Below are positions 5,438 to 58,015 of a DNA stretch of 64,000 bases, one piece after another. Numbering within the stretch: the stretch's first letter is position 1; each line of letters opens with the position of its first letter. The stretch comes from Dysidea avara (Eukaryota; Porifera; Demospongiae; Dictyoceratida; Dysideidae): positions 45,017,391 to 45,081,390 of the forward strand of contig NC_089272.1 in assembly GCF_963678975.1 (NCBI RefSeq), read 5' to 3'. Both the position numbers and the translations under genes were made by a program. The notes below the pieces were generated by a model that had not been told where the DNA came from, searched no databases, and saw only the letters and a program-made list of their open reading frames with translations.

Positions 5438-5868
5438 CTCTATTTTTAAGACCTTCAGGCTGCACAGCGAATGCTAAAGTTGGACCTGTTTGAACAGGAA
5501 TATGATGTTAACAATACACTTGTGTACTATTTCATAACATAATCAGCAAATTCCATATCAAACATGTTAGAACAAGACAACTCTTGCTGAGTGGCCATCT
5601 CTTAATGACCAAGGACCAATCAAGTATAGCTATGTTTCAGACACATACTTCATAACCTCAAGCCAACTCATTATAGTGGCCATGCAGGTCCCAAACAAGG
5701 TGTACTTCATGACCTTATTAAAAGACCATCTACTGTAATTATTGTGGTATATTAACAAGAGTACATAATAAAAATAGTGAAGGAGAGCGTCTAACTAGGA
5801 CACTTTCAGCCAAAATCACAGTGTAGTATAGAGCATCAATACATTGACAGAACAAAAGCTTTACCTTA

Positions 5869-19900: not shown

Positions 19901-20660
19901 CCTTTCTACAGGGTGATTTGTTTGTAGCTAAATTCTCTACAGGGCGATTTGTTTGCAGCTGAACTCTCTACAAGGTAGCTTCTTTGTAGCTGAACTCTCT
20001 ACAATGTAACTTCTTCTAGCTGAACTCTCTACAGGATGACTTGTTTCTAACAGAACTCTCAACAGGGTGATCTGTTCATAGCTGAACTTTCTACTGGGTG
20101 ATTTGTTTGCAGCTGAACTCTCTACATGGTGGTTTCTTTGTAGCTGAACTCTCTACAAAGTGACTTCTTCTAGCTGATCTATCTACAGGATGACTTGTTT
20201 CTAACTGAACTCTCTACAGTGTGATCTGTTAATAGCAGAACTTTCTACTAGGTGATTTGTTTGCAGCTAAACTCTTTGCATGATTGTTTCTTTGTAACTG
20301 AACTCTCTACAAGGTGACTTCTTCTAGCTGATCTCTCTACAGGATGACTTGTTTCTAACTGAACTCTCTACAGTGTGATCTGTTCGTAGCAGAACTTTTT
20401 ACTGGGTGATTTGTTTGTAGCTAAACTCTTTGCATGATTGTTTCTTTGTAACTGAACTCTCTACAAGGTAACTTCTTCTAGCTGATCTCTCTACAGGGCA
20501 ATTTGTTTGTAGCTGAATTCTCTACAGGGTGATTTATTTGAGCTGAACTCTCTACATGATGGCTTATTTGTAGCTGAACTGTCTATTTGGTACCTTCTTC
20601 TAGCTGATCTGACTACAGGGTGACTTGTTTGTAGCTGAATTTCCTACAGAATAACTTACA
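16905..20660. repeat. Satellite array of a 31-bp unit (about 120 copies)
   Basis: The unit is approximately GGTGATTTGTTTGTAGCTGA followed by ACTCTCTACAA. Variants such as GTAACTTCTTCTAGCTGATC alternate in recurring orders. The period is not a multiple of three and no frame stays open, so it is non-coding. Blocks of several hundred bp recur (for example 18547-18920 with 20105-20490, and 19020-19400 with 19540-20040), showing higher-order duplication. Confidence 0.95.
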
Positions 20661-35849: not shown

Positions 35850-36052
35850 CTAGATGTCACACTGCTTGTGACAAACTTCAGGTATTGGTGTACAGGTTGG
35901 GGGAAAATAATTCCACTCTCCGTTAATACACTGCAGAACATATGATCCTCTTATGTTAAAGCCTTGTCCACATGTGAAGAATGCAAACTTCCCATCATCA
36001 GCGACTGTCACAAAACCATTTCTTGGAGGCTTTATTGTTGGACATGGCTGTT
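35850..36052 (-). CDS. Terminal exon: sushi (CCP) domain and stop
   Basis: Phase-1 start after CATTACAG. CPTIKPPRNGFVTV, FFTCGQGFNIRGSYVL, CINGEWNYFPPTC supply the four cysteines and GF/W residues of a complement control protein domain. After a short tail with two more Cys (PEVCHKQCDI) the frame stops. No membrane segment follows. No clear AATAAA immediately downstream was established. Confidence 0.85.
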
Positions 36053-39000
36053 CTGTAATGAAAGCCACCATAATTTACAAGTATCTTAAATATTGGTTGT
36101 GTATGCTTGTGTTTCTTACCTTCAACAACTACTATAACATTAGCTTGATCAACATAATCAACACCTTTAACTTGATTCCTGCCTATACAGACGTACACAG
36201 TAGTGTGTGGAGAATCAGTAGGAACCAAAAATATTTGTTGATATAATTCTTCTAGTGGATGTACAGGGACACCATCACCATGCCATTGTACAGTGGGTAT
36301 GGGTAGTCCTTCCGCTGCACAGTAAAGTAGCAACTGAGTACCAACCTTTACTATGTGAGGAGACTGTGATGGACTGATGATCATTTGTGGAGGTTCTGAA
36401 GAATATGCGGCACAAGTATATAAATTATACAATTGAATAGAATGATTATTGCAATGTTGAACATCTCTATGCATCACTATTAATGAGTATAACATCGTTG
36501 CTCAACCTTATAAGCTACATGCCCTTCCTAAACTGACTCACCCAAGTAGATCTCTGTGATATTTGACTGCATTACTAATCAGGCAACTTAGCAGCATCAC
36601 CATTATATACATATCTTTCAATTTTTAGGCACAACTCATACAAGACATCAGCGTACACAATATAGACTCCAGCAAGCATATAACCAAATCACTTTTATAA
36701 CTTAATCATGCAATAATAACAATCTGTATAGTATATTACATAATACAGTGCTCTCTCAATTATCTGAGCAATCAGTTATCTGAATATATTATAGTAAAAA
36801 TGACTGTTCTATTAGAGTAATTTTTCTAGGTGTACATTCTATTAGAGTATTTGAACAGGGCTCTGTACATAAATTAATTGGCTTCAATTAACTATACTTT
36901 TCAATTATCTGAACATACCGTGGTACCAAGCAAGTTGAGGGAACACTGCACAGTTGTTCAGAACAATTTGTACCATAATTAGTTTCAACAGTCAAATATG
37001 CAGCTAGCTACACTGTATTTACATATGTCATGTGCCGATGCACACAACTGATATCAAAGTGCATTATTACACTTTATAAACTTACGTGTCACATTTAGTA
37101 CAACACTGTCATTTCCTGTTATTGGTGGATTGGTATTAATCACTACTTTACAATGATATTCCTGATCATTGTTACTTTTGCTTAGAACTGGAACAGTGAA
37201 GAAATCTGTGAAGTTGTTTATCAAGCTTCCTTGTATATCCTCAACTCTTCTCACTTCAGTATCACCAGTGGTCCAAATGATATCAACTGTAGCAGCAATA
37301 TCGCTTGCTGCTGCAATGTTACACTCTAAAGTCAGTGACTGCCCAACCACTTGTTCACAAGGAGCAACAACTTGTACAATAGGTGTTGGAACTATGAAGG
37401 ATAACACCAGATAATAAGTATGATTATGTCAATCGTAAATTTTATGTACTAATGCACAACAAAAAAATGCTTACTAGCACATAATTGATTTATTACAGAC
37501 TGCTGCAGTTGTTGTACATTAAATGAACTGAAGGAAAATCTACGATATACAAATCTCGGATCACTTGCAATGGTGTGCAGTTCAAAGAAATCAGCTGCAT
37601 CAATCCCAACAGCATAAACATCATAAATATTTGCTTCATGAATATTGTTTGCAACTATCTGTGTTGAAAACCGATTATTTGATCTTCCAGCAGTGAATAA
37701 AATAGCAATATTTGAGGTGTCAGTTCTCAATCCTAGTGTATCGTTTTGTGCACTTGAAAGTAGAAGTCTTAGAGCAGTGTCTGTATTGGTAGGAAACAAA
37801 CCACTATATGGTAATTCATCAATGGCTGGCAATAGGGTCTCTAAACTGGTGTGCTCTTCAAGGTCAAACTGAATATGAGCAGTTCTGTCAAACAAGATCA
37901 TGCCAACTGAACTGTTAGGAGATCCAACTTTCAATGCAATACTAATACTTTCAGCAAAATCTCTAACAAGCTGAAACTCAAATGATCTAACAGCAAAAGA
38001 ACGATCAAGTACAAATACCACATCTCTTGCTTGAAATGGACAATCTGTGAATAAAAGTAAGTAATTTTAGTATAAATTACCAACCTAATACTGTAATTAC
38101 ATACCTGTTTGTGGACATAATCTGCACTGCCTGCCTAAATTAAATGCTACTCCAGAAAGAACATTGCAGCACTCTGAAAAACTTGTAATAGCCCCAATTG
38201 GATTTCCGGTGCAACGAGTGTTCAGATAGCAAGATGGTGCTAAAGTCAGAGAATTACAAACTTACAACTAATTGTTTTGTAGCATATAATTGATACTTAT
38301 CTGCATTTCGTATCAGTTAAACATACTGTATTATGATTTTTAGGACCACTACTTATGAAATAGACAATAATAGTATGCAGTTTAGTGGTAAAAGTTGAAC
38401 TTAAAATGATTTAGCCTGTCTGTACATGTGTAACATTAACATTACTGGGTGTACAGTGCCATGCTTTAGTTCTCGTATCACATACGCACATATAAAAATA
38501 TTCACCTTGAAAGTCTAATTCAATCCTTCCACTACCACTAACAAGTTGTATTGGTGAGAAAATAAATACGTCGCAGCGATAGCCACTAAAACTATCATCT
38601 GCATTTAGTGAAGGAATAAATAGTGAGTCCTCAAACACTACTGAATCATTACTGATGTTTCCAGCTACAGTAACAAATCTCACTAGTCTTGTACTTCCTA
38701 GTAAATTGTTTATCGCAAACCATTGGATTGTTGCATTAGTGGTAATTCCTCTTGCAGCAGTGACAGTACAATCAAGTTGAAGTGACTCTCCAAATACCAT
38801 GTCATCCATGGTTGTGACATTTACAACGGGAGCTGGAACTGTAATAATACTATAATAATTTAATTTGTACATACAATGTGAATTGTGTAAATGCACTGTG
38901 TTGACTAAAGTCATGTGTATAGTCATACTAAATTGGTATTTGGACATTAATAATTATTTAGTCCCTGCATGGTTACTGAATAACATCCATGACCACTCAA

Positions 39001-42000
39001 TATTTTGTTTAGCAAATAAGTAGATCTTCTGATACCAAAAGTAATACTTCAAATATTTTGCATGCATTAAGTTGTGCAATTGCTCTGACAAGTTTACAAA
39101 ATGTAATAATGCACTTTGATATCAGTTGGTTGCATCAGCTCAATGCACGCACAAGTTAATGCATGCATTTATATTTCATCCATTGTCTAGCCAAATATTA
39201 GTCACATAATTACTTACAAAGTGATGCTAAGTAACTACAGTGGAACCTCAGTTATCCATACCTCAGTTATCTGGATTCTTAGTTTACCAGACTACGAAAA
39301 TGACTGCTCTATTAGAGTAGTGACTGTTCTATTAGGGTAGTTGAAAATACTGATCATTTTTCTCTATGCTATTTAAATTATTTATGCATGGTTTCAGAGA
39401 TACGGACTTTTCAGACTTATGGACCACCCTTGGTTCCAAGGGGTTTGGATAACTGAGGTTCCACTGTAGGTAGTGTTGCTGAATTTTCAAACTTAATTCA
39501 CCAAACTATACTATTGAAATCTATCAAATTAGGACACCGTATGTCTGACTGCATGGCTATTGTGAAAACCCAAAGATGAGTAACTTGAAAACTTTGGCCA
39601 AAGCCAACTGGAATAGACAGATTTCGGTGTATTTCACTACTAACATCTAGTCATAGTGCCACCAATACATAGCTATAAGTATGTGCTCACTGGTTAAATC
39701 TAATCTAATGGTTGAATTAGCAGAATCTTCTATCATCAAGTTACATATGTAGTTCCCTTCATCTCCCTCCATTAGGTAATCAAATCGAATAATGGTAGTG
39801 TATATATTACCAATGGAATCATCAGTGGTAAGAACTGTTGGTACAACTGTGATCCTGTTAGAACTTGTAATCCCCACCCAATTGAGATTAACCAAATTAA
39901 GATCAACAGTTGAAGTAATTGTTACAGTACACACTATATCAATTGCTTCTCCAATTATTCCTCGTGAAACATCAGGATCTAAGAATGTCCTTGGTGTGGG
40001 TGCTATAAAATAAATATATTTGCATAATAATTTTTGCACATAAGCATATAATTAATTGATTAAAATTTTGGCCCAAAGGAAACTATATAATTAATTGTGA
40101 CCAGGACTGCAAAAATAGGGCATGTGGGCACATGAAATTTGCTTACCTTTTCAAACTTTAATGATGTATAACTTTTTATGTGATTAAACTACAGTAATGC
40201 AATTTTCCCCAATTATTAAGATTTAGTTGGCTTTATGAATGTAAATATGTAATTCCTGTGCTGAGATATAACTTGTTATGCAATGGGCTGTAGTTTGTGC
40301 CCACATGCCCTATTTTCACAGGCCAGGTCACAAGTATTAAGTATTAATTAATTGTTCAGGAAAGTAGTAACTATTGAAAAATGTAATTTTTGATTATTCT
40401 GTCATTCTGCTGTTCCATTATTCTGGGTTTTACTGCTTCCCAATAATTCAGACATCTCCAGAATGTGTTAATATCCTACAACTAATTATTCACATGCATT
40501 AATTACTTACTGAAGCATAGCTGTTCAGTCACTTCTTCCAGTATTCTCTGAGCACTGAAACTATCAAAAAAACTTGTAGAGAAAACAAGAGATGGGTCAC
40601 TTGCTATTGTGCGGAGTTCAGATAAGCTATTTCCACCAATTCCAACAGCATAAACATCAAATATATTTGTTGCATGAAGTCGGAATGCTGCTGATTGTGT
40701 TGAAAATGAACTTCTAGATAACCCATCAGTAATAAATATTGCAACATTTGATGTTTCATTTCTTAATTGTAAACTTCCAAATTGTGCAGAAGTTCTTAAG
40801 AAATCCAATGCCCTTGCCGTATCTGTCCTAAAGCCACGATTATATGGTAAGCCAGGATTAATAGCTGGTAACAGAGTACTTAAGCTGGTGTGTCTTGATA
40901 TATTAAATTGAAGACGCACAAAATCATCAAATAAAATTACACCCACTAAGCTTTCAGGAGAATTGGCTATAAGAGTAGCAGTAATGTTCTCAGTGAACTC
41001 CCTGACCAGCTGAAACCTGGAGAATCCAATGCTGCTAGTGGTGTCAATTACAAACACCACATCTTTAACAGCCACAAAGGTGCAATCTACGAAAAATATT
41101 CAAGAAAATTAATTCACGTGCTTTAATATTGACATTAATTGAGGGTGAATAGACATGATCGACTTGTTACTGATTGACTTATCAATGGACAACAGTCATA
41201 ATTATAATAATATACTCACTTGGACTAATAGGACATGGTTGACATCTACTATCTAAGTCATATGACACACCAGAGTATTTCGTGCAACAGTCAGAGAAGG
41301 TGATAGTTTGATTGAGTGGATCTCCACTGCAACTACTTGTGATGTAGCAAGATGGTACTATAGATTATACAGACATGATAATAAATATTACAGTGACCGT
41401 ATAGTAAGTTGATGTGTGTACTATACTCACCTGGAAAGTCCAATATGATAAATCTACTCCTCACAATTCTAGGAGAAGTATTAAAGATCACAGTACATTG
41501 ATATACTCTACCATCATCACGGACACGTAATGGTTGGGTGACTAACAGATTACTGTAAATTGCTGAATTGTTTGTAATGTCTGGTATTATTCCATCCACT
41601 CTCCTCACTGTTGTATTACCAGTAGTCCATATAATATCCACTCTACTAGAAATGCCTCTCACACTAATAACATTACATTGTAAAGTTGTCAATTGTCCAA
41701 ATGTTGGTGTGTTCAGTGTAGTAACCTCCACAACAGGGAGTGGTACTGTGTAAGAAAGAGTGTTCATTTTAATACCACACAAAATTTTATTCATATGCAT
41801 CAAATTATATAATTATTCACTCATACTCAGTATTACACATCATATGACTGTCTACAGTGTAAGGAATGGCAGTTAAATCTGCATGTAAAGCTGATAACTA
41901 ATTGAATTTGTTTATTAGGTAAATACTGCCAACTGTTTTAATTTTATGTACTAAAGTACATGTAAGTTTTCAGTATTCTATAGTGAAGTTACTGCATATA

Positions 42001-45000
42001 TGTACATACATACTTCTGAAATTCTGCAGCCGAACAGTTTGAGATTCAAACATGTCATCTGCTACAAGATTGCATGTGTAATTTCCTTCATCTCCTTCCA
42101 TTAGATAAGCAAATTGAAGTACTGTAGTGTACGTGAAGCTAAATGCATTGCTAGTGATATTGGTTGGTGTAACAGTGACCCTGTTGTCAGATGTGATGAT
42201 GTTCTCTGAGTCCAACCAAATCAGCTGCACTGAATTAGGATCAATAGCAGATGTTATTGTGACTGAACAGATAAGATCTTGCATTTGTCCAATAGTTCCA
42301 GAGAAAAAACCACTGGGTTGCAATGAAATTCTAGGAGAAGGAACTATAGAAAAATACATACAATGTTTGAATAGTTATACTGACACTAACTGTTGGTGCA
42401 GTGTTCTTACCAGAGCACAGTTGATCTGTTATATTCATTTTCAGTTCTTGCAGGGCAAATTCGCTATAGAAATTTGTAAAGTACACAAATCTTGGATCAC
42501 TTGCAATGGTACGGAGTTCATTAGTGTCAGCACTACCAAATCCAATAGCATAAATATCAAATATATTTGCTGCATGAAGTGCAGCTGCTGCAGATTGTGT
42601 AAGAAATTGATTACTAGATCGTCCATCAGTAATAACTATTGCAATGTTAGATGTTTCATTTCGTATTTCCAATGCCCCATTCTGTGCACTAGATAATAAA
42701 AACTCCAATGCATTGCCTGTGTTAGTGCTAAAATAACTGTTGATATATGGTAAGCCTGGATTAATAGCTGGCAGTAGTGTAGATAAACTAGTATGCCTTT
42801 GCAGGTTAAACTGAAGACGAGTGAACCAGTCAAATAGAATTACTCCAACTCTGCTATCTGGAGAGATGAGTTTCAAATCAGTAGTTACATTTGCCACAAA
42901 TTCTCTTATATGCTGAAAGCGAAAACTTCCAATACTTCTGGTGGTGTCAATTAAAAACACTACATCTTTAACTACTTCAATAGAACAACCTGAAATGAAA
43001 TCCATAGCATAGACATTATAACCTGCATACAGTGTATATGTGTGTACCTGTTGTAGGGCACAGTAAGCATTGTTCATTTGAAACAAATGATACACCAGAA
43101 AGCTCAAAGCAGCACTGATTGAATGATATGGAATCATTAAATGAAGCAGAATCATTAAACGATAGAGAGTCACTACCAATTGATCCCCCAGCACATCTAG
43201 TTGTGTTAAAACATACTGGTGCTATGGAATAAAATGATACGATAAAATTGTGTGATATCTTTGCCCACAAAATAAGATGTGGTACATTGATTACTTTTTT
43301 TACATTGCTCTGTGAAGTCAACATTATACATAAGCTACTGTAATTATGGAATAACACAGAGAGAACACAAATACAAGTCTGAGTATAATGTTACTGTATT
43401 TAGATCAAAAGTGAACATGTTGCCGTGCACTCTAATCAGTCTAATGACAGTTATTTTTGCACACAACACATGTAAAACTAAAAAAAAATATTTTAAGTTC
43501 TCAACACTTTTAATACCTATGGATTACTTTTAGTGATTGAGCTGTTTTACTGACACTTATACAGCACCATACAGTGACACACATGTATAAAGTACATGTA
43601 TTGCTCTTAACAACAGCGCACACTGTTCAATCCAGATATAATATAGAGCTTACCAAAAAAGTCCAACATCACGCTTCCACTAAAGCTGATTGGAGGATTC
43701 TTATTAATTAGAACTGTACATTGGTAAATTCTGCCATTATCAAGTGCAGTTAGTTCAGGTAGTACAAGTGAATCAGTGTAGATTGCAGAATTGTTGTTGT
43801 TGGTGGCTGAAGTATCATTAACTATCCTCACTGTCCTACCATCAACAGTCCATATAATATCTACAGCACTACTGATTCCTATGACAGTAATAACTGTACA
43901 GTCCAGTGTGAATGGATCACCCAAAACTTGGTCATCAAGTGTAGTGACCAGCACAACTGGGTTTGGCACTGCAGAATATAAGACATCAATAATAAATACA
44001 CACCATAACACTCTGTACTTGCTTAATGCTACTTATGCACTTACATCTGAAATTTGTCAACTCTACTGCCTGAAACTTTACTGTGTCATTTACTACTGAG
44101 TAGCAGATGTAGTTACCCTGGTCATCTTCAAACAAAGGATCAAACCGAAGAGTCGTAGATAAGGTGCTGCTGTTTAAACCGGTGGAGTTATCAGCTGAGA
44201 TGATAGTTATTCTGCCATCATCAGTGGTTATGTTGTCAGCATTCAACCACTCTAGCTCAACAGTATCAGGATCAATCTCAGACGGTACAGTAACAGAGCA
44301 GATTACATCTTGTCTTTGTCCCTTGGTGTTTTGTAAAAAACCACTTGGATTAAAAGAGATTATTGGACCAACAGCTCCTGTATGCAAATAATCCAAATAT
44401 GTGAATGTACTAACTACAGTGAACATACCTGAACAAAGATTTTCTATAATGCTTTCCCGTAACTGTCTAAGTCCAGTGCTGTTGAACTGATTTGAAAAGA
44501 AAACAAGTTCTGGATCACTAGCAATTGCATTGAGTTCTGATATGTCAGCACCATCAACTCCAACAGCAAAAACATCAAATAGGTTTGCAGCATGCAGTGA
44601 AGCTGCAGCTGATAGGGTTGCTGATCGACTGTTAGATCTTCCATCAGTTATAACAATTGCTACATTAGCAACTCCATTCCTAATTCCCAATGCTCCATTT
44701 TGGGAACTGGACAATAACAATGTCAGTGCCTCTGCAGTATCAGTTCCTCCACCACTGTAAGGTAGCCCAGGATTAATAGCTGGTAACAGTGTGTTTAAAC
44801 TGGTGTGATCTCGGAGATCAAATTGTATATGGGCATTACTTTCAAACAAGATAACTCCCACTCTACTCTGAGGAGAAGAACCTACAACATTAGCTACAAT
44901 GTTAGCAATGAACTCCCTAATTAGTTGAAATCGAGAACTTCCAATGCTTCCAGAGGCATCAATAACAAACACCAAATCTAGTGGTGCATTAGATGAACAT

Positions 45001-48000: not shown

Positions 48001-51000
48001 TCAGATTATTGCCCTTCAATTTTAACACTGCGAAGGGGCAGGCGGTGCCAGCCTACTTAACCTGTGTTTCCTGGTTACTCTAATTTACACCCATCATGCG
48101 ATCTTCCTGCATAATTTCTAGATATTACTGCCTTGCCCTGCTTGGCTTTTTGTCCTGGTTTGGCCTACTGCCTTATCTGGTGTACTTACTTGCTTTGTCT
48201 ATTGCCATACTGGGATTATTCCCCTGCTTGGCTCATTGCCTGCTTGTCCCACTGCCCTACCTGGGTTACTGCCTTACTTACCTTACTGCTCTGTATAAAA
48301 TTCCAGCATGGCAACAGACTAAGCAGGCAGTGAGCCAAGCAGGTCAGTAAGCCAGTAAGCCAAGCAGTGATCCCAGCATGGAAGCAGGGCAGCTAGCCAA
48401 ATCAGTAAGCCAAACAAGACAGTAGGCCAAGCAAGACAAGTAGGCCAAACACGTCAGTACGCCAAGGAAGGAAGTAGGTTGAGCAAGGCAGTAGGCCAAG
48501 GAGGGAAATAAGGAAGTAGGCCAAGCAGGGCAGTAGCTAATCCCAGCAAGATAATAGACCAAAACTGTGCTGGGATTACTGCCCTGCATGGCTTGTTGCC
48601 CTGTTTGGCCTACTGTCATGCTGGGATCACTGCTTGACCTCTTGCCTTGTTTGGCTTACTACCTTAATTAGCCCACTGCCTTGCATGGCTTACAGCCCTG
48701 CATGGCCTACTGCCATGCTTGGCTATACTTCCCTGTTCGGTTAACTGCTCTGCCTTGTACTAATGATGATGACTCTAAGTATCCTTGCTGTGTACCTACA
48801 TACCGTATCACTGGTGTTGCTGTGGCTACTGCAGCTGCTTCATTATAATATAATTGTAGTGCTATCTTGAGCAATTCCTATACAGTACATCTAAGCCTTG
48901 GTTACATCTCATTTTGAAGGCTACCAATGCAACACAGGATGAGTTACTCCACCTGACCCAATCTTTGCATGGAAAATAACCACCAGTCAAAGACAATCCA
49001 TTCCATCATAGCCATCGTCGTGGCAGACACTCCTACTTGTCTTGTTCAAGTCATGTATTAGTACACTAGTCAAGGGTCAGAGTCTCATAGTCACTGCCCA
49101 TTGTTTCATGAAGGCTGCAGGTTTCCCCTCTCACAAGTTACACTCTACAGCTGACTGCAACCTACAAATTTTAATGAGCAGAATTTTTCCAGCCATAGCA
49201 ATAGCATGGTAATGCATATGAAATGCACAAACAACCTCCTATTTTTCCATGACTTCTCTCCAGAGCTGACACCAGCCATTAGACCGTTTAGAGTCCAGAC
49301 CACCATATCATGTATGACAGACAATTGCACCATTGTATAGCTGTATATTGCACCATTGTATAGCTGTATATTGCCAACTATTATTATGCTGTGCATTGCT
49401 GACTATGGTGTGCATGATACTTTAGTTGTTCATCAAAATCTTTTGCTGTTTTATTGCCCATCATACATTTATTGCCCATCATACATCTCAAATGTATTGT
49501 TGTTTATTACACACCCCTCATTGTTTATGGCATGTCATGCAATGCACTTGTCTGCTTGTCAGGGACACATCATGCACAGCTTATTGTTTTGCTTGTCATT
49601 TGTCATTATTAATTTGTCATGCAGTGTTCATTGTTTGTTTCTTATCATGCATTGCAACTTGTGTTTGTTGCTCATCATGCGTCACTTGCTGTTTGTGGCT
49701 TCTCATGCATTGCTCATTGTTTGTGGCTTTTTGTGGCTTATAATATTGCTCTTTATTTATTGTTTGTTTGCTTATCATATATCCCCATTGTTGGTTGCTT
49801 ATTGTGCATTACTCATTGTTTGCTGTGTGTTTCCTATTACGCATTGTTCATTATTTGTTGCTTATTGTGCATTACTCATTTTTGGTGTTCATTGCTAGGC
49901 CTGAGTCAAATATGCTCAATTTTTTCCCAAAGTGCTTTCAGGAATTTTCCTGCCTATTATGCTCTTCAGTATTTCCATTATGCTTGCAGTATAGTCTTAG
50001 GTTAATAACATTTCTTACCATGATGTTAATCATTGAATGCTCTATTAGAGTATATCACTACAAAGTGACTGTTTTGTTAGAGAGTATCAATCTACATTTC
50101 CACTTACTGCTCTTAATAGGGAGTCTCAATCTATTTTCAAGGAATTAAGCTCCATAGTTACCTAAGGTAACTATGCAAACATTTTCTGGCATAGCATTTT
50201 AGCCTACTATACTTGTATCATGCTGGCATGTTTGATGCAGACCTATCCATTGTTCATTGTTTGTTGCTATTAATTGTACATTGCATGCACTTAGCTGCTT
50301 ATCATGTATTGATTGCTCGTCATGCATTATGCATTACTTACTGTTTGTTGTTAATTGTGCAGCACTCCACTGACTGCCACTTTATTGTGCTTTACTTAGA
50401 GTACCATGCTAGCAAAGGTTGACAGAAATTGGGTGAAGTCAGGCTGCTTGATATGTCTTAGAACTTGCTATAGTGGTAGAGATGCAGCAGCTAGCTTCCT
50501 GATCAAGGCAGATGCAGGTGTACTTAGCGTCCAGCAATGTCCTGGGTTGCCCAATTTAACCCCAAAATATGCATATAGCATTAGTGCATCCCATATAAGG
50601 GAGTGCAATCAAGCTTATGATGGTAAACACGATTTATCATTGTAAATTAGGTTAACAGACAAGGAAGCCTGTGTATGGTTGGAATTAGAACCCTAATTTT
50701 CGATACCATTGCACATGTGAACATTTATCACATGATTGCTACTCTCATGGCAATGGTGCTATATACTTGGAATTGCTTGTGCTAAATCCTGTCTCAATGG
50801 TTAAATCCACCATAAGCATGCCAAAACATCCACCCTCTCTTGTTTTTATCCTAACATACCCAAATCCTGACTTGAGTTATCATACATACTTTGTATAAAA
50901 TTAACACAGTTGGCAACCCAGGACATTGGTGCAGTCAAGCTGCTTGATATGTCTTAGAACTTGCTATAGTAACAGAGATGCAGCAGCTAGCTTCCTGACC

Positions 51001-54000
51001 AAGGCAATAGCAGTGCACTTAGTATTGCACAATTTAACCCTAAAATATGCATAATAGTGCTAGCTCATCTTATTGGAGTTCTGGTGGGGTGAAGTGGTTT
51101 CTTAGATAGCATGTATTAAGAGTGTCTCCATGCCAGGATTACCTTAAGGTTAAACCAATAGGAACAAAATAAATGAGAATAACTTATTAGACTCATGCAT
51201 CTAATCCCACTGCTACTTTAAATAGTGGGCAGGATAGACAAATGAAACATTCATTAACCATTCTGTAAGTCTGACAAAATCTGTAAAAGGTACAGTACCT
51301 TTCTGCACAAGAATCACTTTTTCACTGTACGTCACCAAGAGTAAGCTAGGCTGTTCCGCTAATGATTTCCACTACTTTATGTGCCCTTGTTTCTGAAGTC
51401 CTGTAAATCCACTGGTGACAATCCGAGGCCCTAATTCCGCTCCAGTTATGCTGGAACAGCTCATATTGACACAGCCAGAGAGCAGAAATCAGATGGATGC
51501 TTTCTGGACCTGTAATGAGTGCTCTCAGTTGATAGAGTCTTCCACTGTCCTCAGATTGTGAGCCTTGTAACTTCACTTATCTTTTTCCTTTCATTTCATG
51601 CCCCTATAAGTTGTCCCCCCACCCACTACCCTATTACTATCTCCTGTAATACTAAAACAAGATTGGAAAAACCTTCAAAAGTATCTAAATTTTGAATGGC
51701 ATTATTGTGCTCTGCCAGTACAATGAGTGCCAATGGATAGCTTCACTCATGGTAAAAATTTGTTGGGTACAACTTTGGCAATTGGCAGGTTATTTATAGT
51801 TTGGTGTGCAATATGAAACAAGCTACTGAAGCCTGTCTAATCAGGACACTGTATGCTTAACTGCATGGCCACTGTACCTCAAGATGTGTAACTTGAATAC
51901 TTAGGCCCAAAGCCAACTACTTTTACAGTATTTCACTAATAATTATTCCTTTTTCTAATTGTAGTCATGGTACTGTCAATACATAGTTATATACGTATGA
52001 GCTCACTGATTAAATCTAATCTAATGGTTGAATTGGCAGAATCTTCTATCATCAAGTTACATATGTAGTTCCCTTCATCTCCCTCCATTAGGTAATCAAA
52101 TTGAATAATGGTAGTGTATATATTACCAATAGAATCATCAGTGGTAAGAACTGTTGGTACAACTGTGATCCTGTTAGAACTTGTAATCCCCACCCAATTG
52201 AGATTAACCAAATTAGAATCAACAGTTGAAGTAATTGTTACCGTACACACTATATCGATTGCTTCTCCAATTATTCCTCGTGGAACATCTGGATCTAAGA
52301 ATGTCCTTGGTGTGGGTGCTATAAAATAAATATAATTGCACAATGATTACTGTATACAAGCATACATATTAATTCAGACATCTCCAGAATGTGTTAATAT
52401 CTTACAACTAAAGATTTACATATGGTACATCACAATTACTTACTGAAGCATAGCTGTTCAGTCACTTCTTCCAGTATTCTCTGAGCACTGAAGCTATCAA
52501 AAAAACTTGTAGAGAAAACAAGAGATGGGTCACTTGCTATTGTGCGGAGTTCAGATAAGCTATTTCCACCAATTCCAACAGCATAAACATCAAATATATT
52601 TGTTGCATGAAGTCGGAATGCTGCTGATTGTGTTGAAAATGAACTTCTAGATAACCCATCAGTAATAAATATTGCAACATTTGATGTTTCATTTCTTAAT
52701 TGCAAACTTCCAAATTGTGCAGAAGTTCTTAAGAAATCCAATGCCCTTGCTGTATCTGTCCTAAAGCCACGATAATATGGTAAGCCAGGATTAATAGCTG
52801 GTAACAGAGTACTTAAGCTGGTATGTCTTGATATATTAAATTGAAGACGTGCAAAATCATCAAATAAAATTACACCCACTAAACTTTCAGGAGAATTGGC
52901 TATAAGAGTAGCAGTAATGTTTTCAGTTAATTCCCTGACCAGCTGAAACCTGGAGAATCCAATACTGCTAGTGGTGTCAATTACAAACACCACATCTTTA
53001 ACAGCCACAAAGGTGCAATCTACGAAAAAATATTCAAGAAAATTAATTAATACATATGTGTTAATATTAACAATAAGTAAGGGTAAATAGATCATGACTT
53101 ATTATTGATCGACTGATCACGGACAATGGCCATGTATATGTTACTAATACTCACTTGGACTAATAGGACATGGTTGACATCTACTATCCAAGTCATATGA
53201 CACGCCAGAGAACCTTGTGCAACAGTCAGAGAAGGTGATAGTTTGATTGAGTGGGTCTCCACTACAACCACTTGTGATGTAGCAAGATGGAACTATAGAA
53301 TAATTATAGTGACATAATATAAAATACTAATAGTAACTGTATTGTAAATTGATGTTTGTACTACCGTATACTCACCCGGAAAGTCCAATATGATAAATCT
53401 ACTCCTCACAATTCTAGGAGAAGTATTAAAGATCACAGTACATTGATATACTCTACCATCATCAGGGATAAGTAATGGTTGTGTGACTAACAGATCATTG
53501 TAAATTGCTGAATTGTTTGTAATGTCTGGTACTATTCCATCCACTCTCCTCTCTGTTGTATTACCAGTAGTCCATATAATATCCACTCTACTAGAAATGC
53601 CTCTCACACTAATAGCACTACATTGTAAAGTTGTCGATAGTCCAAGTGTTGGTGTGTTCAGTGTAGTGACTTCCACAACAGGGAGTGGTACTGTGTAAGA
53701 AAAAGTATTCATTTTAATACCACACAAAATTTTATTCATATGCATCAAATTATATAATTATTCATATTCATATGTATGCATTCTGTTAGAATGTATCATG
53801 AAAACTGGGACAGTGTAAGGCATAAAAGTTTAATGTACATGCACAGCTGATAACTATTTGTAATTTGTTTATTTGGTAAATACTGCCATTTGTTTTAATT
53901 TTATGTACTAAAGTACATATAAGTTTTCATTATTCTATAGTGAAGCTACTGTATACATTATATGCTGTATGTGCATCCATACTTCTGAAATTCTGCAGCC

Positions 54001-57000
54001 GAACAGTTTGAGATTCAAGCATGTCATCTGCTACAAGATTACATGTGTAGTTTCCTTCATCACCTTCCATTAGATAAGCAAATTGAAGTACAGTAGTGTA
54101 TGTGAAACTGAATGCATTGCTAGTGATATTGGTTGGTGTAACAGTGACCCTGTTGTCAGATGTGATGATGTTCTCAGAGTCCAACCAAATCAGCTGCACT
54201 GAATCAGGATCAATAGCAGATGTTATTGTGACTGAACAGATAAGATCTTGCATTTGTCCAATAGTTCCAGAGAAAAAACCACTGGGTTGCAATGAAATTC
54301 CAGGAGAAGGAACTATAGAAAAATACATACAATGTTTGAATAGTTATACTGACACTAACTGTTGGTGCAGTGTTCTTACCAGAGCACAGTTGATCTGTTA
54401 TATTCATTTTCAGTTCTTGCAGGGCAAATTCACTATAGAAATTTGTAAAGTAAACAAATCTTGGATCACTTGCAATGGTATGGAGTTCATTAATGCCAGC
54501 ACTACCAAATCCAATAGCATAAATATCAAATATATTTGCTGCATGAAGAGCAGCTGCAGCAGATTGTGTAAGAAATTGATTATCAGATAATCCATCAGTG
54601 ATGACTATCGCAATGTTAGATGTTTCATTTCGTATTCCCAACACCCCATTCTGTGCACTAGATAATAAAAACTCCAATGCATTGCCTGTGTTAGTGCTAA
54701 AATAACTGTTGATATATGGTAAGCCTGGATTAATAGCTGGCAGTAGTGTAGATAAACTAGTATGCCTTTGCAGGTTAAACTGAAGACGAGTGAACCAGTC
54801 AAATAGAATTACTCCAACCCTGCTATCTGGAGAGATGAGTTTCAAATCAGTAGTTACATTTGCTACAAATTCTCTTATATGCTGAAAGCGAAAACTTCCA
54901 ATACTTCTGGTGGTGTCAATTAAAAACACTATATCTTTAACTACTTCAATAGAACAATCTGAAATGAAATGCATAGCACTGACATTATACCCTGCATAGG
55001 TAGGTAGGTAGGTACGTACGTACATACATACATACATACATACATACATACATACATACATACATACATACATACATACATACATACATACATACAGTAC
55101 TACAGTGTGTATGTGTTTACCTGTTTTGGGGCACAGTAAGCATTGTCCATTTGAAGCATATGATATACCAGAAAGCTCAAAGCAGCATTGCCTGAATGAT
55201 ATGGAATCATTAAATGATGCAGCAGAGTCATTAAATGATACAGAGTCGTTATTAATAATTGATCCTCCATCACATATAGTTGTGTTAAAACATACTGGTG
55301 CTATGAAATAAAATAATAAGATACAATTGTGTGATATCTTTGCACACAAAATAAGATATGTGCATTGATAAATTAATTTGATTACTTAATGTATTCATTT
55401 ATAATGCTCTGTGTAAGATCAGTCAACACAGCTATTCATCCCTCATTAAAGCCACATACACGCATAATCAAATACATAATACGGTACTGTAGTTATTGTA
55501 TGTATTTGAACAGCACAAAACAAATACAAGTCTGAGTGTATAGAGAAATTTATATTTTGATCAAAAGTGAACTTACTGCAGTGTGTTTGTGCTTAACACA
55601 TTGGCAGTTAAACTGTATAGTGAATAAAATGAATAGTATGTTTTCACTGGGTAACATTATTGTTATGGGTATGATCTGGTGCACTTTGGTTTTGCGTGCA
55701 CATCACATGTAAAGCTAAAACAAGTTAATTCCTACGGATTACTTTAATTACCTAAATTACCTTAATTACCTATGGATTACTTTTAGTGACTGATCAATTA
55801 CTTTTAGTGATTGAATTGTTTCACAGATTCTTATACTGCACCATAGAGTAATTAACGAGTAAGCAACAACACACAAATAGATGCTGTGTGCATTCTTGCT
55901 CAGTCCACACAATGTATAGGGCTTACCAAAAAAGTTCAACATCATGCTTCCACTAAAGCTGACTGGAGGATTCTTATTAATTAGAACTGTACACTGGTAA
56001 ATTCTACCATTATCAAGTGCAGTTAGTTCAGGTAGTGCAAGTGAATCAGTGTAGATTGCAGAATTGTTGCTGATGGTGGCTAAAGTATCATTAACTATCC
56101 TCACTGTCCTACCATCAACACTCCATATAATATCTACAGCACTACTGATTCCTATGACGGTAATAACTGTACAGTCCAGCATAAATGGATCACCCAAAAC
56201 TTGATCATCAAGTGTAGTGACTAGCACAACTGGGTTTGGCACTGCAGAATATAAGACTTCAATAATAATTACATATCATTCTGTACTTGCTTTAATGTGA
56301 CTGTATGTATTTACATCAAGGTCTGCATCATATATGCCAGCGTAAAATAAAAAGCATATAATAGGCTGTGGAGTGCTATGCCAGTATAAGGCCAGCATAT
56401 TAGGCAAATATTTCAAGCTATGGAGCTTAATTCCATGAAAATAGATTGATACTCCAAATAGAGCAGTCAGATGAAATTGCACATAATTCTTTAGATCAAT
56501 ACTCTCTAATAGAACAGTTACTTTGTATTGAAATACTCTAATAGAGCATTCATTGATTAATATATTCCAAGATAATCGTAAGAAACTTTTTGATAACCCA
56601 GGAACATAACACAAGCATAATGGGAACACTGAAGAGCGTAATTAGTGAAAAGTTTAGAAAATTTCTGAAAGTATTTTGGCAAAATTTGAGCATATTTGAC
56701 TCACATCTGAAATTAGTCAACTCGACTGTCTGAAACATCATTGTGTCATTTACTACTGAGTAGCAGGTGTAGTTGTCCTGGTCATCTTCAAACAAAGGAT
56801 CAAACCGAAGAGTCGTAGATAAGGTGCTGCTGTTTAAACCGGTGGAGTTATCAGCTGAGATGATAGTTATTCTGCCATCATCTGTGGTTATGTTGTCAGC
56901 ATTCAGCCACTCTAGCTCAACAGTATCAGGATCAACCTCAGATGGCACAGTAACAGAGCAGATTACATCTTGTCTCTGTCCCTTGGTGTTTTGTAGAAAA

Positions 57001-58015
57001 CCACTTGGATTAAAAGAGATTATTGGACCAACAGCTCCTGTATACAAATATAAATAAAAATATTTAGTTTACATTGTTTTAGTGTCAATACTTGAAGAAT
57101 ACAAGGGTATTGCTTAAGTTTTGATTCCAAGAGGCACAAAGTATGGTAATGAAATTCTGTGATTTATGTAACAGTTGCAGCTTTGTATGGCTGTTTTAAC
57201 TTTAAAAAACTTATCGCATAATTGGAAGAGGAAAAGCATAAAAATTAGCATACTACTGTTACTACTAGCATACTACTATTATCCTACCATCATAGCCATT
57301 TCTTGGCCACCACTTTTGATTTCACAATGTTTTACCCTGCCTTTTTAGGGGCCACGTTTTTTGCCATTTTGATTTAGATTGTAGACATATTATAAAACCA
57401 CAATACATCTTCGGTACCTAACAAATATGAACACCACATTTCTCATACCTCCTATATCTTGTCTACTACAATGTACAATATGTATTCCAGTTGGTCTTTG
57501 CAGTCCAGAACTTATTGTGACACGTTGTGAGTTAGGAGTACGTTTACTTATTCTTTCAATAGAATTATGAGACCAATCCGTCCAATATAGATAATCCCCA
57601 AACACTGTTATAGAAAATGGGTGGAAGGAGCCACTTAACAAAATGACAATATTGTTTCCATCCAAGTCTCCTTTGGCAATAATATCAGTGAAAGCATCTG
57701 CCCAGTAAAGTGCAGGCTCAGTGAAGTCAATAGTTACAGCATTTGGCCACACCAAGTTTTGTGTGATGATGGTTTGTCTACCACTACCATCTAAGCGCAT
57801 CCTTTCAATACGAGGGTTCGATCCCCAGTCAGTCATATACAAGGTATTATCCATGGGATTAAGTGCAATTCCTCTGGGCTCATCTGCATTACTAACAAGT
57901 ATCCTTCTAAAATTTCCATCAAGATCTGACTGTTCTAAGGTATTAGTCCCAGTATCAGTCCAATATAAATTGTCATTGATCCAATCAACAGCCAAACCAT
58001 CTGGTACACTCAGTC
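35850..58015 (-). CDS. Mosaic extracellular protein: YWTD, repeated VWA-Ig-Ig-Cys cassettes, sushi (27 exons)
   Basis: Twenty-seven minus-strand exons between 58015 and the stop at 35850 have consensus GT-AG borders and start and end in phase 1. The 26 internal ones are all multiples of three, so they splice in one frame (about 3,150 residues in this window). Order: YWTD propeller; Ig-Ig-Cys; VWA-Ig-Ig-Cys; VWA-Ig-Ig (no Cys); VWA-Ig-Ig-Cys; VWA-Ig-Ig-Cys; VWA-Ig-Ig-Cys; VWA-Ig-Ig-sushi-stop. VWA, Ig and sushi domains are adhesive and matrix or receptor modules, so a secreted or cell-surface role in adhesion or recognition is likely. I see no membrane segment after the sushi domain, so the end seems secreted. 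The 5' end is not in view. It could instead be two adjacent genes (57.5-52 kb and 47.2-35.9 kb), but uniform phase and continued cassette order favour one. Confidence 0.7.
36120..36395 (-). CDS. Exon: Ig domain, I-set-like
   Basis: 92 codons: PPQMIISPSQSPHIVKVGTQ, cysteines in LLYCAAEGLP and YVCIGRNQ, W in VQWHGDG. The AEGLPIPTVQWHGDG segment is typical of I-set Ig domains of matrix and adhesion proteins and differs from types a and b. Donor GTAAGAAAC. Confidence 0.85.
36746..36948. mobile_element. Pogo-like MITE in an intron, 203 bp
   Basis: TA then CAGTGCTCTCTCAATTATC at the left; GAGGGAACACTG at the right (next bases CA, a mutated TA). It lies in the intron between the exons at 37086 and 36395, and contains the paired CTATTAGAGTA motif at 36802-36851. 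Confidence 0.6.
37086..37391 (-). CDS. Exon: Ig domain, type b-like
   Basis: 102 codons, VPTPIVQVVAPCEQ start. Cysteines in LECNIA and YHCKVV, W in DIIWTTGD, plus an extra Cys near the N-terminus. It follows the last VWA directly, so the type-a Ig is absent here. Donor GTAAGTTT. Confidence 0.87.
37475..38044 (-). CDS. Exon: VWA domain with degenerate MIDAS
   Basis: 190 codons with a clear VWA fold (RDVVFVLD, VGMILFD, TSLETLLPAID, YDVYAVGI). The metal site is altered: the first loop reads DRSFA (Ser to Ala) and the third LFTAGRS (Asp to Ala). Metal-dependent ligand binding is therefore unlikely for this most C-terminal VWA. Donor GTAAGCAT. Confidence 0.9.
38105..38239 (-). CDS. Exon: small Cys-rich module
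   Basis: 45 codons: PSCYLNTRCTGNP, FSECCNVLSGVAFNL, CRLCPQTG. Shortest of the five modules. Donor GTATGTAA. Confidence 0.8.
38506..38838 (-). CDS. Exon: Ig domain, type b
   Basis: 111 codons, VPAPVVNVTTMDDM start. Cysteines in LDCTVTA and YRCDVF, W in TIQWFAIN. Donor GTGAATAT. Single copy. Confidence 0.87.
39238..39466. mobile_element. Pogo/Tigger-type MITE in an intron, 229 bp
   Basis: Exact inverted ends beginning CAGTGGAACCTCAGTTATCC with TA on both sides (39236-39237, 39467-39468). CAGTGGAACCTC ends with TA duplication are classic for pogo/Tigger. It contains the paired CTATTAGAGTA motif at 39302-39342. It lies just outside the duplicated block. Confidence 0.8.
39691..40002 (-). CDS. 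Exon: Ig domain, type a
   Basis: 104 codons, APTPRTFLDPDVSRG start. Cysteines in DIVCTVTI and NYICNLM. Donor GTGAGCAC. Last exon shared with the duplicated block; exons 3' of it have no second copy. Confidence 0.88.
40096..40333. mobile_element. Foldback MITE in an intron, 238 bp
   Basis: TTGTGACC and ATAGGGCATGTGGGCACA at the left are mirrored by TGTGCCCACATGCCCTAT and GGTCACAA at the right, about 37 bp of inverted end. Absent from the paralogous intron (52319-52443, only ~125 bp), so it was gained after the duplication, or lost from the other copy. Confidence 0.75.
40511..41086 (-). CDS. Exon: VWA domain
   Basis: 192 codons, MIDAS DTTSS, FRTDTARA, FITDGLS. Acceptor TTTTTCGTAG|ATTGC, donor GTAAGTAAT. 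Confidence 0.9.
41220..41357 (-). CDS. Exon: small Cys-rich module
   Basis: 46 codons: PSCYITSSCSGDP, FSDCCTKYSGVSYDL, CQPCPISPS. Donor GTGAGTATA. Confidence 0.8.
41431..41745 (-). CDS. Exon: Ig domain, type b
   Basis: 105 codons, VPLPVVEVTTLNTPTF start. Cysteines in LQCNVI and YQCTVIF. Donor GTGAGTATAG. Confidence 0.88.
42014..42343 (-). CDS. Exon: Ig domain, type a
   Basis: 110 codons, VPSPRISLQPSGFF start. Cysteines in LICSVTI and NYTCNLV. Donor GTATGTATG. Confidence 0.88.
42411..42989 (-). CDS. Exon: VWA domain
   Basis: 193 codons, MIDAS DTTRS, STNTGNA, VITDGRSS. Starts with CSIEVVKDVVF after TTTCAG. Donor GTAAGAAC. Confidence 0.9.
43048..43221 (-). CDS. Exon: small Cys-rich module
   Basis: 58 codons: PVCFNTTRCAGG, then SLSFND/SASFND/SISFN repeats, then QCCFELSGVSF and CLLCP. 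The SFND repeat insert is shared only with the 55121 exon. Donor GTACACAC. Confidence 0.75.
43654..43968 (-). CDS. Exon: Ig domain, type b
   Basis: 105 codons, VPNPVVLVTTLDDQ start. Cysteines in LDCTVI and YQCTVL, W in DIIWTVDG. Donor GTAAGC. Confidence 0.88.
44045..44377 (-). CDS. Exon: Ig domain, type a
   Basis: 111 codons, GAVGPIISFNPSGFLQ start. Cysteines in DVICSVTV and NYICYSV. Donor GTAAGT, in contrast to the repeat-derived donor of the paralogous exon at 56705. Confidence 0.88.
44429..45007 (-). CDS. Exon: VWA domain (unique)
   Basis: 193 codons, with canonical MIDAS DASGS, GGTDTAEA and VITDGRSN. Starts CRCSSNAPLDL after acceptor TTTTGTAG|AATG. This is the only VWA of the six with an unmodified DxSxS loop. 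In the duplicated block at 57 kb the corresponding place is taken by the YWTD exon. Confidence 0.9.
45254..45370. repeat. Small foldback in an intron
   Basis: TTGAATGCAGAGTAAATCC and GGGATTTATTTCTGCATTCAA face each other across about 80 bp. MITE-like; class unknown. Confidence 0.6.
45489..46218. mobile_element. TTAA-flanked element, intact copy, 730 bp
   Basis: Begins GGTTACTGTATAG after TTAA (45485-45488) and ends CTATTCTGTAACC before TTAA (46219-46222). TTAA duplication is the mark of piggyBac and Kolobok transposition. No coding sequence is inside. It lies in the intron between exons 46909 and 45007. Two further copies in the window are each interrupted by another element. Confidence 0.8.
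46909..47241 (-). CDS. Exon: Ig domain, type b (unique)
   Basis: 111 codons. Cysteines in LQCSAV and YECEVV, W in DIIWRTGN. It is the type-b partner of the type-a exon at 52007-52318, with about 4.8 kb of repeat-filled intron between. No Cys-rich exon follows before the next VWA. Donor GTATGTTT. Confidence 0.85.
47338..47560. repeat. Dispersed repeat, SINE candidate (partner 50652-50836)
   Basis: Starts TTAACAGACAAGGAAGCCT and shares CTCATGGCAA, GTGCTRAATCCTGTCTC and TAAGCATGCCAAAA with 50652-50836. Read on the minus strand both have a B-box-like GGGTTCTAATTC, which suggests a tRNA-derived SINE, but the A box is weak. Confidence 0.5.
47899..48055. mobile_element. Short MITE, about 157 bp
   Basis: TAGTCTGGCACTGCCTGCC-CTTCGC at the left and GCGAAGGGGCAGGCGGTGCC at the right are inverted ends of ~27 bp. 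Target duplication unclear. Confidence 0.65.
48120..48760. repeat. Degenerate minisatellite that switches orientation
   Basis: A ~20-bp unit like CTGCCCTGCTTGGCTTACTG is repeated forwards in 48120-48300, as its complement (CAGTAAGCCAAGCAGGGCAG) in 48315-48555, and forwards again in 48565-48760. The ORFs on both strands are low-complexity artefacts. Confidence 0.8.
49380..49890. repeat. Degenerate tandem array (CATTG.TTGTTGCTTATCATG type)
   Basis: Imperfect units of about 30-40 bp such as CATTGTTTGTTGCTTATCATG repeat in one orientation, with scattered units to 50370. The hydrophobic ORFs here derive from this low-complexity composition and are not called genes. Confidence 0.7.
49896..50245. 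mobile_element. AGGCCTGMRTCA-type MITE, copy 1
   Basis: Ends TAGGCCTGAGTCAAATATGC and GCATGTTTGATGCAGACCTA are imperfect inverted repeats. It contains the paired CTATTAGAGTA motif at 50035-50092. Related copies at 56318-56702 and about 61490-61893. Confidence 0.65.
50440..50600. repeat. Direct repeat, copy 1 (partner 50932-51072)
   Basis: CTGCTTGATATGTCTTAGAA through GCAGCAGCTAGCTTCCTGA to CAATTTAACCC recurs at 50932-51072. The flanks also share CCCAGGACATTG or its complement. Confidence 0.75.
50652..50836. repeat. Dispersed repeat, SINE candidate, copy 2
   Basis: Partner of 47338-47560; see there for the shared blocks. It lies between the two direct repeats 50440-50600 and 50932-51072. Confidence 0.5.
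50932..51072. repeat. Direct repeat, copy 2
   Basis: Same orientation as 50440-50600, with a few substitutions and small deletions. Confidence 0.75.
51073..51839. other. Intronic stretch without recognised features
   Basis: Part of the long intron between exons 52007 and 47241. A minus-strand ORF at 51346-51576 has no known motif or splice context. Confidence 0.4.
52007..52318 (-). CDS. Exon: Ig domain, type a (copy of 39691-40002)
   Basis: 104 codons, APTPRTFLDPDVPRG start. Cysteines in DIVCTVTI and NYICNLM, W in NLNWVG. Four residue differences from 39691-40002. Last exon of the duplicated block. Confidence 0.88.
52444..53019 (-). CDS. Exon: VWA domain (copy of 40511-41086)
   Basis: 192 codons. 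MIDAS: DTTSS, FRTDTARA, FITDGLS. Only three residue differences from the partner exon within the VWA fold (L for F, A for V, Y for N). Donor GTAAGTAAT. Confidence 0.9.
53155..53292 (-). CDS. Exon: small Cys-rich module (copy of 41220-41357)
   Basis: 46 codons: PSCYITSGCSGDP, FSDCCTRFSGVSYDL, CQPCPISPS. Same C..C..CC..CxxC layout as the other modules, without the Ser-rich insert. Donor GTGAGTATT. Confidence 0.8.
53376..53690 (-). CDS. Exon: Ig domain, type b (copy of 41431-41745)
   Basis: 105 codons, VPLPVVEVTTLNTP start. Cysteines in LQCSAI and YQCTVIF, W in DIIWTTGN. Donor GTGAGTATAC. Confidence 0.88.
53983..54312 (-). CDS. Exon: Ig domain, type a (copy of 42014-42343)
   Basis: 110 codons. 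Cysteines in LICSVTI and NYTCNLV with the DEGNYTC motif, W in QLIWLDSE. Three residue differences from 42014-42343. Donor GTATGGATG. Confidence 0.88.
54380..54958 (-). CDS. Exon: VWA domain (copy of 42411-42989)
   Basis: 193 codons. Metal-ion-dependent adhesion site (MIDAS) is complete in variant form: DTTRS (DxTxS), STNTGNA for the Thr, VITDGLSD for the Asp. Ends DQLCSG. Donor GTAAGAAC. Confidence 0.9.
54997..55096. repeat. Tetranucleotide microsatellite in an intron
   Basis: About 25 units: TAGG x4, then TACG, then a long CATA run. It lies in the intron between the Cys-rich exon and the next VWA exon. The paralogous intron at 42990-43047 has no such tract. Confidence 0.95.
55121..55300 (-). 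CDS. Exon: small Cys-rich module (copy of 43048-43221)
   Basis: 60 codons with the pattern C-x5-C, a Ser/Asp/Asn-rich SFNDS insert, CCFELSGISYAS, then CLLCP. The paired CC and terminal CxxCP recall TB-type (fibrillin-like) modules; this is a resemblance only. The insert has SFNDS-like repeats. A (CATA)n run lies 25 nt downstream of its donor. Confidence 0.75.
55927..56241 (-). CDS. Exon: Ig domain, type b (copy of 43654-43968)
   Basis: 105 codons, VPNPVVLVTT-type start (M in place of V by codon reading of the junction). Cysteines in LDCTV and YQCTV, W in DIIWSVDG. About nine residue differences from 43654-43968, the most diverged pair in the duplication. Donor GTAAGC. Confidence 0.85.
56318..56702. 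mobile_element. AGGCCTGMRTCA-type MITE inserted at a splice donor
   Basis: Inserted between ACATC (56313-56317) and ACATC (56703-56707), directly at the 3' border of the Ig exon 56705-57037. The paralogous intron at 43969-44044 lacks it. On the minus strand its first bases GAGTC follow the GT of the donor. It carries the reverse complement of the paired CTATTAGAGTA motif (about 56497-56550). Confidence 0.8.
56705..57037 (-). CDS. Exon: Ig domain, type a (copy of 44045-44377)
   Basis: 111 codons, starting GAVGPIISFNPSGF. The Ig cysteines are in DVICSVTV and NYTCYSV, with W in ELEWLNAD. It differs from its partner exon at 44045-44377 by about six residues. The donor is GT followed by GAGT, where the GAGT comes from a repeat inserted directly beside the exon. 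Confidence 0.85.
57290..57375. repeat. Fragment related to the palindrome arm at 16690-16819
   Basis: CTACCATCATAGCCATTTCT TGGCC, GATTTCACA, and GATTTAGATT follow the same order as the right arm of the 16490-16819 palindrome. Confidence 0.6.
57449..58015 (-). CDS. Exon: LDL-receptor class B (YWTD) propeller repeats
   Basis: 189 codons with about four YWTD-type repeats: DNLYWTDTGTNTLEQSDLDG, NTLYMTDWGSNPRIERMRLD, ALYWADAFTDIIAKGDLDG and DYLYWTDWSHNSIERI. This covers part of a six-bladed propeller, so more blades should lie in upstream exons. Acceptor TATTTAG|GACTG, donor GG|GTATGAGA. It stands where the cassette pattern would place a VWA exon. Confidence 0.85.

Follow-up and report, generated by a model that had tools for sequence, protein, structure and literature searches.

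Exon organization of the window gene

The window, which is the whole stretch of 64,000 nucleotides analyzed here (contig C1:45017391-45081390, where contig C1 is NC_089272.1, within a 550.8-Mb genome), is referred to as locus A. On its minus strand, we identified 27 exons between positions 58015 and 35850, each preceded by an AG acceptor and, in all but the last, followed by a GT donor, with all borders in phase 1 (Table 1). Each of the first 26 exons has a length divisible by three, and joining all 27 yields one stop-free frame of 3149 residues whose sole stop lies at its end. These results confirm the exon inventory of an earlier note on this DNA (six VWA, 14 Ig-like, five Cys-rich, one sushi, and one YWTD exon on one strand) as well as its description of the phases and lengths. 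With 26 of 26 internal introns in phase 1 and exons the size of domains, the chain is a class 1-1 mosaic. The 3149 residues include 59 sequons for N-glycosylation and 79 cysteines; no transmembrane exon was seen in the chain, whose frame closes after the sushi domain. Two introns, at 67.0-58.0 kb and 52.0-47.2 kb, are long and rich in repeats, and the second (4765 nt) is the longest of the 26 internal introns of the chain.

Three other features lie elsewhere in the window: a 550-aa open frame on the minus strand (3821-5473) that resembles a 2OG-Fe(II) oxygenase by eye, a 295-aa frame on the plus strand (24152-25039) that, by eye and by its motif, resembles a DDE transposase, and a 3.7-kb minisatellite (16924-20639) with a 31-bp unit and higher-order periods of 92 and 123.

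Table 1. Exons of the window gene and its fusion intron, in transcript order (window coordinates).
Feature	Position	Strand	Basis
YWTD propeller, second part, phase 1-1	57449..58015	-	Pfam Ldl_recept_b 103.1 bits; splice sites
IgA-type Ig s1, opens partial core S	56705..57037	-	homology, splice sites
IgB-type Ig s1 (S)	55927..56241	-	homology, splice sites
Cys module s1 (S)	55121..55300	-	splice sites, Cys alignment
VWA s1 (S)	54380..54958	-	homology, splice sites
IgA-type Ig s2 (S)	53983..54312	-	homology, splice sites
IgB-type Ig s2 (S)	53376..53690	-	homology, splice sites
Cys module s2 (S)	53155..53292	-	splice sites, Cys alignment, genome matches
VWA s2 (S)	52444..53019	-	homology, splice sites
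IgA-type Ig s3, closes S	52007..52318	-	homology, splice sites
Fusion intron	47242..52006	-	intron alignments
Ig47, IgB-type, core exon 1	46909..47241	-	Pfam ig 23.8 bits (cut-off 21.8); Ig tree
VWA0, canonical first MIDAS motif DxSGS	44429..45007	-	Pfam VWA 131.6 bits
IgA1	44045..44377	-	homology; predicted model; sub-threshold Pfam Ig
IgB1	43654..43968	-	Pfam ig 29.4 bits
Cys1	43048..43221	-	splice sites, Cys alignment
VWA1 (DTTxS)	42411..42989	-	homology, splice sites, motif
IgA2	42014..42343	-	splice sites, paralog core comparison
IgB2	41431..41745	-	splice sites, paralog core comparison
Cys2	41220..41357	-	splice sites, genome matches
VWA2 (DTTSS)	40511..41086	-	homology, splice sites, motif
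IgA3	39691..40002	-	splice sites, paralog core comparison
IgB3	38506..38838	-	splice sites, paralog core comparison
Cys3	38105..38239	-	splice sites, paralog core comparison, genome matches
VWA3, degenerate MIDAS (DxSFA)	37475..38044	-	Pfam VWA 109.6 bits
IgB4	37086..37391	-	sub-threshold Pfam I-set; Ig tree
IgL	36120..36395	-	Pfam Ig_3 35.8 bits
Sushi with stop codon	35850..36052	-	Pfam Sushi 29.6 bits

Domain identity and the repeat unit

The domain search that the earlier note had suggested was run with Pfam on 10 of the 27 exons, and the other 17 were assigned by homology to these 10. The curated cut-off was passed by both VWA exons, the YWTD and sushi exons, and three of the five Ig exons; IgA1 and IgB4 gave Ig scores below it, and the one Cys exon scanned had no match. 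The predicted model of IgA1 is mostly beta, with seven strands and a pLDDT of 76.4. Cys-Trp-Cys and D-x-G-x-Y-x-C are hallmarks of Ig domains, and both are present in the alignment of the IgA exons. For the six IgA exons, the evidence for a putative Ig identity consists of this mostly beta model, the sub-threshold Pfam scores, and the hallmarks. For the Cys module, six cysteines are invariant across the five window copies, while its AlphaFold model (pLDDT 49) is unusable for the fold. All 14 genome matches to a Cys2 query fall within the core family (25 of 25 candidates scored), a query that did not pick up Cys1-type copies and that a distant form elsewhere could escape.

In a tree of Ig exons from three loci, with midpoint rooting, the IgA exons separate from the IgB exons and Ig47; therefore, the repeat unit is IgB-(Cys)-VWA-IgA. 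The regular repeated order in the earlier description of a VWA-Ig-Ig-Cys cassette holds, but its unit has to be redrawn. A VWA tree was left unused, as five of its nine outgroups, taken simply as the longest open reading frames, were placed within the family groups. The comparison of MIDAS motifs covers the first motif, the search pattern for the third having matched no row: it is DxSGS in seven of seven VWA0 exons, DTTxS in eight of eight VWA1 and seven of eight VWA2 exons (VWA2 of locus C2 has DTSRS), and DxSFA in six of six VWA3 exons. From this distribution, metal-dependent binding would most likely be performed by the first VWA.

A family with a conserved 17-exon core

Using the window exons as tblastn queries against fetched genomic regions, we identified six relatives of the window gene: one near contig C1:44.72 Mb (locus B) and five at contig C1:21.28-21.40 Mb (loci C1 to C5). 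A core of 17 exons is complete at six loci, namely the window (47241-35850, minus strand), locus B, which is 330 kb away, and four loci in the array at contig C1:21.3 Mb, always in the order Ig47, VWA0, IgA1, IgB1, Cys1, VWA1, IgA2, IgB2, Cys2, VWA2, IgA3, IgB3, Cys3, VWA3, IgB4, IgL, and sushi. All six complete cores have four VWA exons and an identical end and stop position of the sushi exon. There are two partial cores: S in the window (57037-52007) and C5, which consists of the first 11 core exons. Core identity among paralogs is 87-94%, and no family exon has an internal stop. The IgL exon exists in six copies with at least 90% identity, the next best match having 52% (best 150 of 214 candidates scored). 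Among 96 homologous paralog exons, 186 of the 187 testable splice sites stand at the homologous phase-1 position, a count that leaves out five sushi 3' ends that agree by definition (191 of 192 with them). Conservation in six complete cores and at these splice sites speaks against a chance origin of the exon chain.

The stretches at contig C1:44.61-44.75 and 44.93-45.08 Mb are likely a large segmental duplication, with matching features offset by ~300-330 kb. The window also lies inside a stretch (contig C1:44.6-47.5 Mb) that is very dense in NIDO exons. Genome-wide, scoring the best 150 among 396 candidates gave at least 158 NIDO matches; contig C1 carries most of the matches listed, many of them at 44.6-47.5 Mb.

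Heads ahead of the core

The domains ahead of the core, here called heads, differ among the loci. C3 and C5 have a signal peptide and NIDO; B has NIDO and an Ig-like exon scoring below the Pfam cut-off; locus C1 has a signal peptide, an Ig-like exon (called by eye, with no Pfam match, and adjoining IgL at 73 in the Ig tree), FN3, and SRCR; and for locus C2 a signal peptide was found and nothing further. Signal peptides were thus found in four relatives (C1, C2, C3, and C5), and no start codon with signal peptide was found for the window gene or for B. Loci C1 and C3 resemble each other from the upstream sequence to the end of the signal peptide; from there to the core, they share no match of at least 150 nt. 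A minisatellite at B 34900-32400 (contig C1:44.748-44.751 Mb) lies just upstream of the NIDO of B, where the first NIDO exon is expected.

The head of the window gene extends beyond the window edge, with NIDO at 78798-76309 and the first part of the YWTD propeller at 67262-67023 (contig C1:45084413-45084652), in window numbering continued past 64000. The presence of an LDL-receptor-B propeller, reported earlier, therefore stands, but the exon inside the window is its second part and not a complete YWTD domain, and the gene does not start at the propeller. The first part scores below the Pfam threshold (14.6 against a cut-off of 21), and a similar two-exon YWTD split, both exons 1-1, was also found after a VWA exon at contig C5:19.63 Mb. 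The inner introns of the NIDO exons are in phase 0. NIDO and YWTD stand in order and in phase, and would form one transcript; between NIDO3 and YWTD1, we found no EGF-like pattern and one low-complexity exon candidate. Upstream of NIDO, on the same strand, lie an IgGFc-binding exon (Pfam, 135 bits), an FN3-like exon (by eye, with no Pfam fn3 match), and an EGF-like exon (by eye), which ends in phase 0 as NIDO requires.

NIDO identity is 62% between the window and B, 46% between the window and C3, 41% between B and C3, and 93% between C3 and C5; by comparison, identity to a NIDO gene from a different chromosome is 47-56%. The nearest relatives of the window NIDO3 exon are at contig C1:45.23 Mb (93%) and 45.19 Mb (92%), compared with 66% for B and 52% for C3 and C5. 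Because NIDO3 is 92-93% like that of neighboring NIDO genes and 52-66% like that of its own family, the heads appear to be recruited. Neither of those two sites appears among the VWA matches (best 150 of 187) or the LDLR-B matches listed. The SRCR of locus C1 has its nearest relatives on contigs C2 and C8 (77-79%), and among the best 150 of 884 candidates scored none lies at another family locus. The window YWTD is nearest to copies at contig C1:39.05 and 38.86 Mb (74 and 77%), and none of 38 YWTD matches is at the B or C loci.

The double core and its fusion intron

In the window, the nine exons of S (from IgA to IgA3) stand upstream of Ig47. They lack Ig47, VWA0, and the entire 3' part of the core, include no sushi or stop exon of their own, and end in the phase-1 donor of IgA3. 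A second double gene was identified at contig C1:21.39 Mb, where the 11 exons of C5 stand upstream of the Ig47 of C4. Both fusion introns resemble the start of the IgA3-to-IgB3 intron for ~180 nt and then the head-to-Ig47 intron, and the switch point is the same in both, base 1227 of the head-to-Ig47 intron of locus C1. The two fusion introns align across this point (73% over 969 nt), and the C5/C4 one has ~1.4 kb of other sequence ahead of the shared part. The shared breakpoint and the homology across the switch therefore point to one ancestral unequal crossover, and the simplest reading of the alignments is a single origin of the double core, in which the intron following IgA3 recombined unequally with the intron preceding Ig47. 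S clusters with the window core (88) rather than with C5; if the double core did arise once, gene conversion or homogenization must have followed. The in-frame gain of whole blocks, which the earlier note had anticipated, is thus borne out. Free gain and loss of cassettes is not, as the six complete cores all have the same 17 exons with exactly four VWAs; the extra VWA units are not free cassettes because they come from one ancestral partial-core fusion.

It is unlikely, in our assessment, that the window instead holds two adjacent genes, with an upstream NIDO-YWTD gene ending with S and a single-core gene starting near Ig47. Such a division would agree with B, C1, and C3, which are single cores with their own heads, with C2, which has a signal-peptide exon, and with the unusual length of the fusion intron, which holds six loosely signal-like ATG frames; the loose hydrophobic-start test behind these frames gave none in the C5/C4 intron and many false ones in the control. 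Yet no coding exon was found in the window fusion intron or in the one ahead of C4 by an exon finder that in the same run detects the NIDO exons of C3, and tblastn gave no match to a family signal peptide or NIDO in either. The end of S in a donor and the switch point common to both loci also argue against two genes.

Selection on the core

The comparison between S and the window core gave a dN of 0.028, a dS of 0.101, and an omega of 0.28 over 1015 codons, with single exons from 0.10 to 0.96 (the latter in IgB_s2). Private changes are 28 synonymous and 23 non-synonymous in S and 29 and 24 in the window core; the corresponding omega is ~0.25 in each and 0.26-0.51 in the other six blocks. Judging from these ratios, both halves of the double core are under purifying selection. 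Across core exons, the mean omega, a pairwise average for each exon, ranges from 0.17 (Cys2) to 0.51 (IgB2). By this measure, neither diversifying selection nor any sign of hypervariable recognition exons was seen in the core, and the values would suit a conserved scaffold.

A role as a polymorphic molecule of self/non-self recognition seems improbable to us; the earlier note had named such recognition as one candidate function, next to adhesion. The family is clustered, converting, and modular, with exchanged heads, and the window sits inside a large region of NIDO genes, as could be expected of such a molecule; but the core sequence gives this proposal no support in its omega values, and the exons contain no Calx-beta, the feature that the part of PMC10815962 cited here names for demosponge aggregation factors. 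We consider it very unlikely that unequal crossover left S as a decaying pseudogene fragment that splicing skips: the absence of Ig47, VWA0, and the whole 3' part would fit a remnant, but nine of its nine exons are open, its overall omega is low (IgB_s2 alone excepted), and its private changes match those of the window core. Slightly less likely still is an assembly artefact, with uncollapsed haplotypes producing the extra block or the copy 330 kb away. At the 3' side, 11.8 kb of loci A and B match at 96% identity, and features match at 300-330 kb offsets; but identity falls to 82-92% further 5', the heads differ, S and the main block diverge at a dS of 0.10 (the longer aligned blocks go as low as 84.6%, and one of 67 nt has 76%), and the fusion switch point recurs ~24 Mb away.

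Interpretation and comparison with known systems

We consider it probable that the window contains the larger part of one secreted mosaic adhesion gene, with a constant core, exchanged heads, and a double core formed once; that the chain runs unbroken from NIDO to sushi is inferred from phase, from strand, and from the second, homologous case. The family would keep its 17-exon core while the domains ahead of it are exchanged through phase-1 introns. In the window gene, NIDO and a two-exon YWTD propeller would be followed by the partial core S and then by the full core, with IgGFc-binding, FN3-like, and EGF-like exons possibly preceding NIDO; the double core would have been kept at two loci. 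The core may be a multivalent rod, extended and glycosylated, in which the first VWA uses a metal site to bind a partner, and the head may decide the target, be it matrix, other cells, or microbes. Secretion is suggested by the signal peptides of the relatives, by the lack of any transmembrane exon seen, and by the closing of the frame after the sushi domain.

No description of this architecture was found in searches of an open-access library of papers, in agreement with the earlier note. As in nidogen, NIDO exons are followed by a YWTD propeller, here upstream of an Ig/VWA part, and the two would belong to one chain. In nidogen, NIDO and the propeller are separated by a G2F beta-barrel and EGF modules; we know of no nidogen with a VWA or Ig core, and the window NIDO3 exon is nearest to local NIDO genes. 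Hemicentin also combines VWA and Ig within one secreted protein, but its one VWA is N-terminal and precedes a long array of Ig repeats and EGFs, whereas the window gene alternates six VWAs with Ig, has a Cys module of its own, and ends in sushi. The best sequence match of VWA0 to a solved structure is collagen VI alpha-3 (301.6 bits for the whole chain). Collagen VI has a triple-helix region between VWA domains; in contrast, the window gene has Ig between its VWAs, and no collagenous stretch was seen by eye in the 27-exon translation.

The NIDO, SRCR, and VWA plus Calx-beta repertoires of this genome, together with its many short introns, would fit a sponge. Sponge aggregation factors are proteoglycans with individual- or species-specific adhesion. 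In the window gene, Pfam found no Calx-beta in the 10 exons scanned, to which the other 17 are homologous. According to PMC10815962, allorecognition in demosponges is controlled by aggregation factors that contain Calx-beta. PMC8242945 reports for one sponge more than 600 SRCRs, combined with sushi, FN3, or EGF, and the legend of its Figure 1 also places NIDO and IgGFc-binding among the domains. The present family is similar to these SRCR and pattern-recognition mosaics in the partners of SRCR; however, section 13 of PMC8242945 describes no VWA-Ig core that carries a NIDO or SRCR head. Class 1-1 exon shuffling, to which the 26 phase-1 introns of the window chain conform, is reviewed in PMC8001218, as far as its cited part extends; unlike in that setting, the exchange can here be seen between paralogs of recent age, and its switch points lie in introns.

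It has been held that phase 1-1 exon shuffling built the extracellular proteins of animals, mostly on the inference of ancient events. The different heads on 87-94% identical cores, with switch points still readable, mean that shuffling can be studied in recent copies, and the pattern suggests that one secreted rod is being fitted by evolution with new heads for binding. Should individuals differ in their heads as well, the family would become a candidate for a recognition system. A broader proposal, which we offer tentatively and regard as doubtful, is germline head swapping in an early-branching animal, in which recombination would recur in phase-1 introns and join heads from the large NIDO, SRCR, and YWTD repertoires to a shared signal-peptide end and a constant 17-exon core; the products would be recognition proteins specific to a lineage or an individual.

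VWA exons were also observed in other settings of this genome. At contig C11:6429001-6435000 (L034), a VWA exon is followed by Calx-beta exons, all phase 1-1, possibly an aggregation-factor-like gene, and at contig C8:33.575-33.595 Mb (L031-L032), VWA and sushi exons, again phase 1-1, suggest that VWA modules are reused with other partners.
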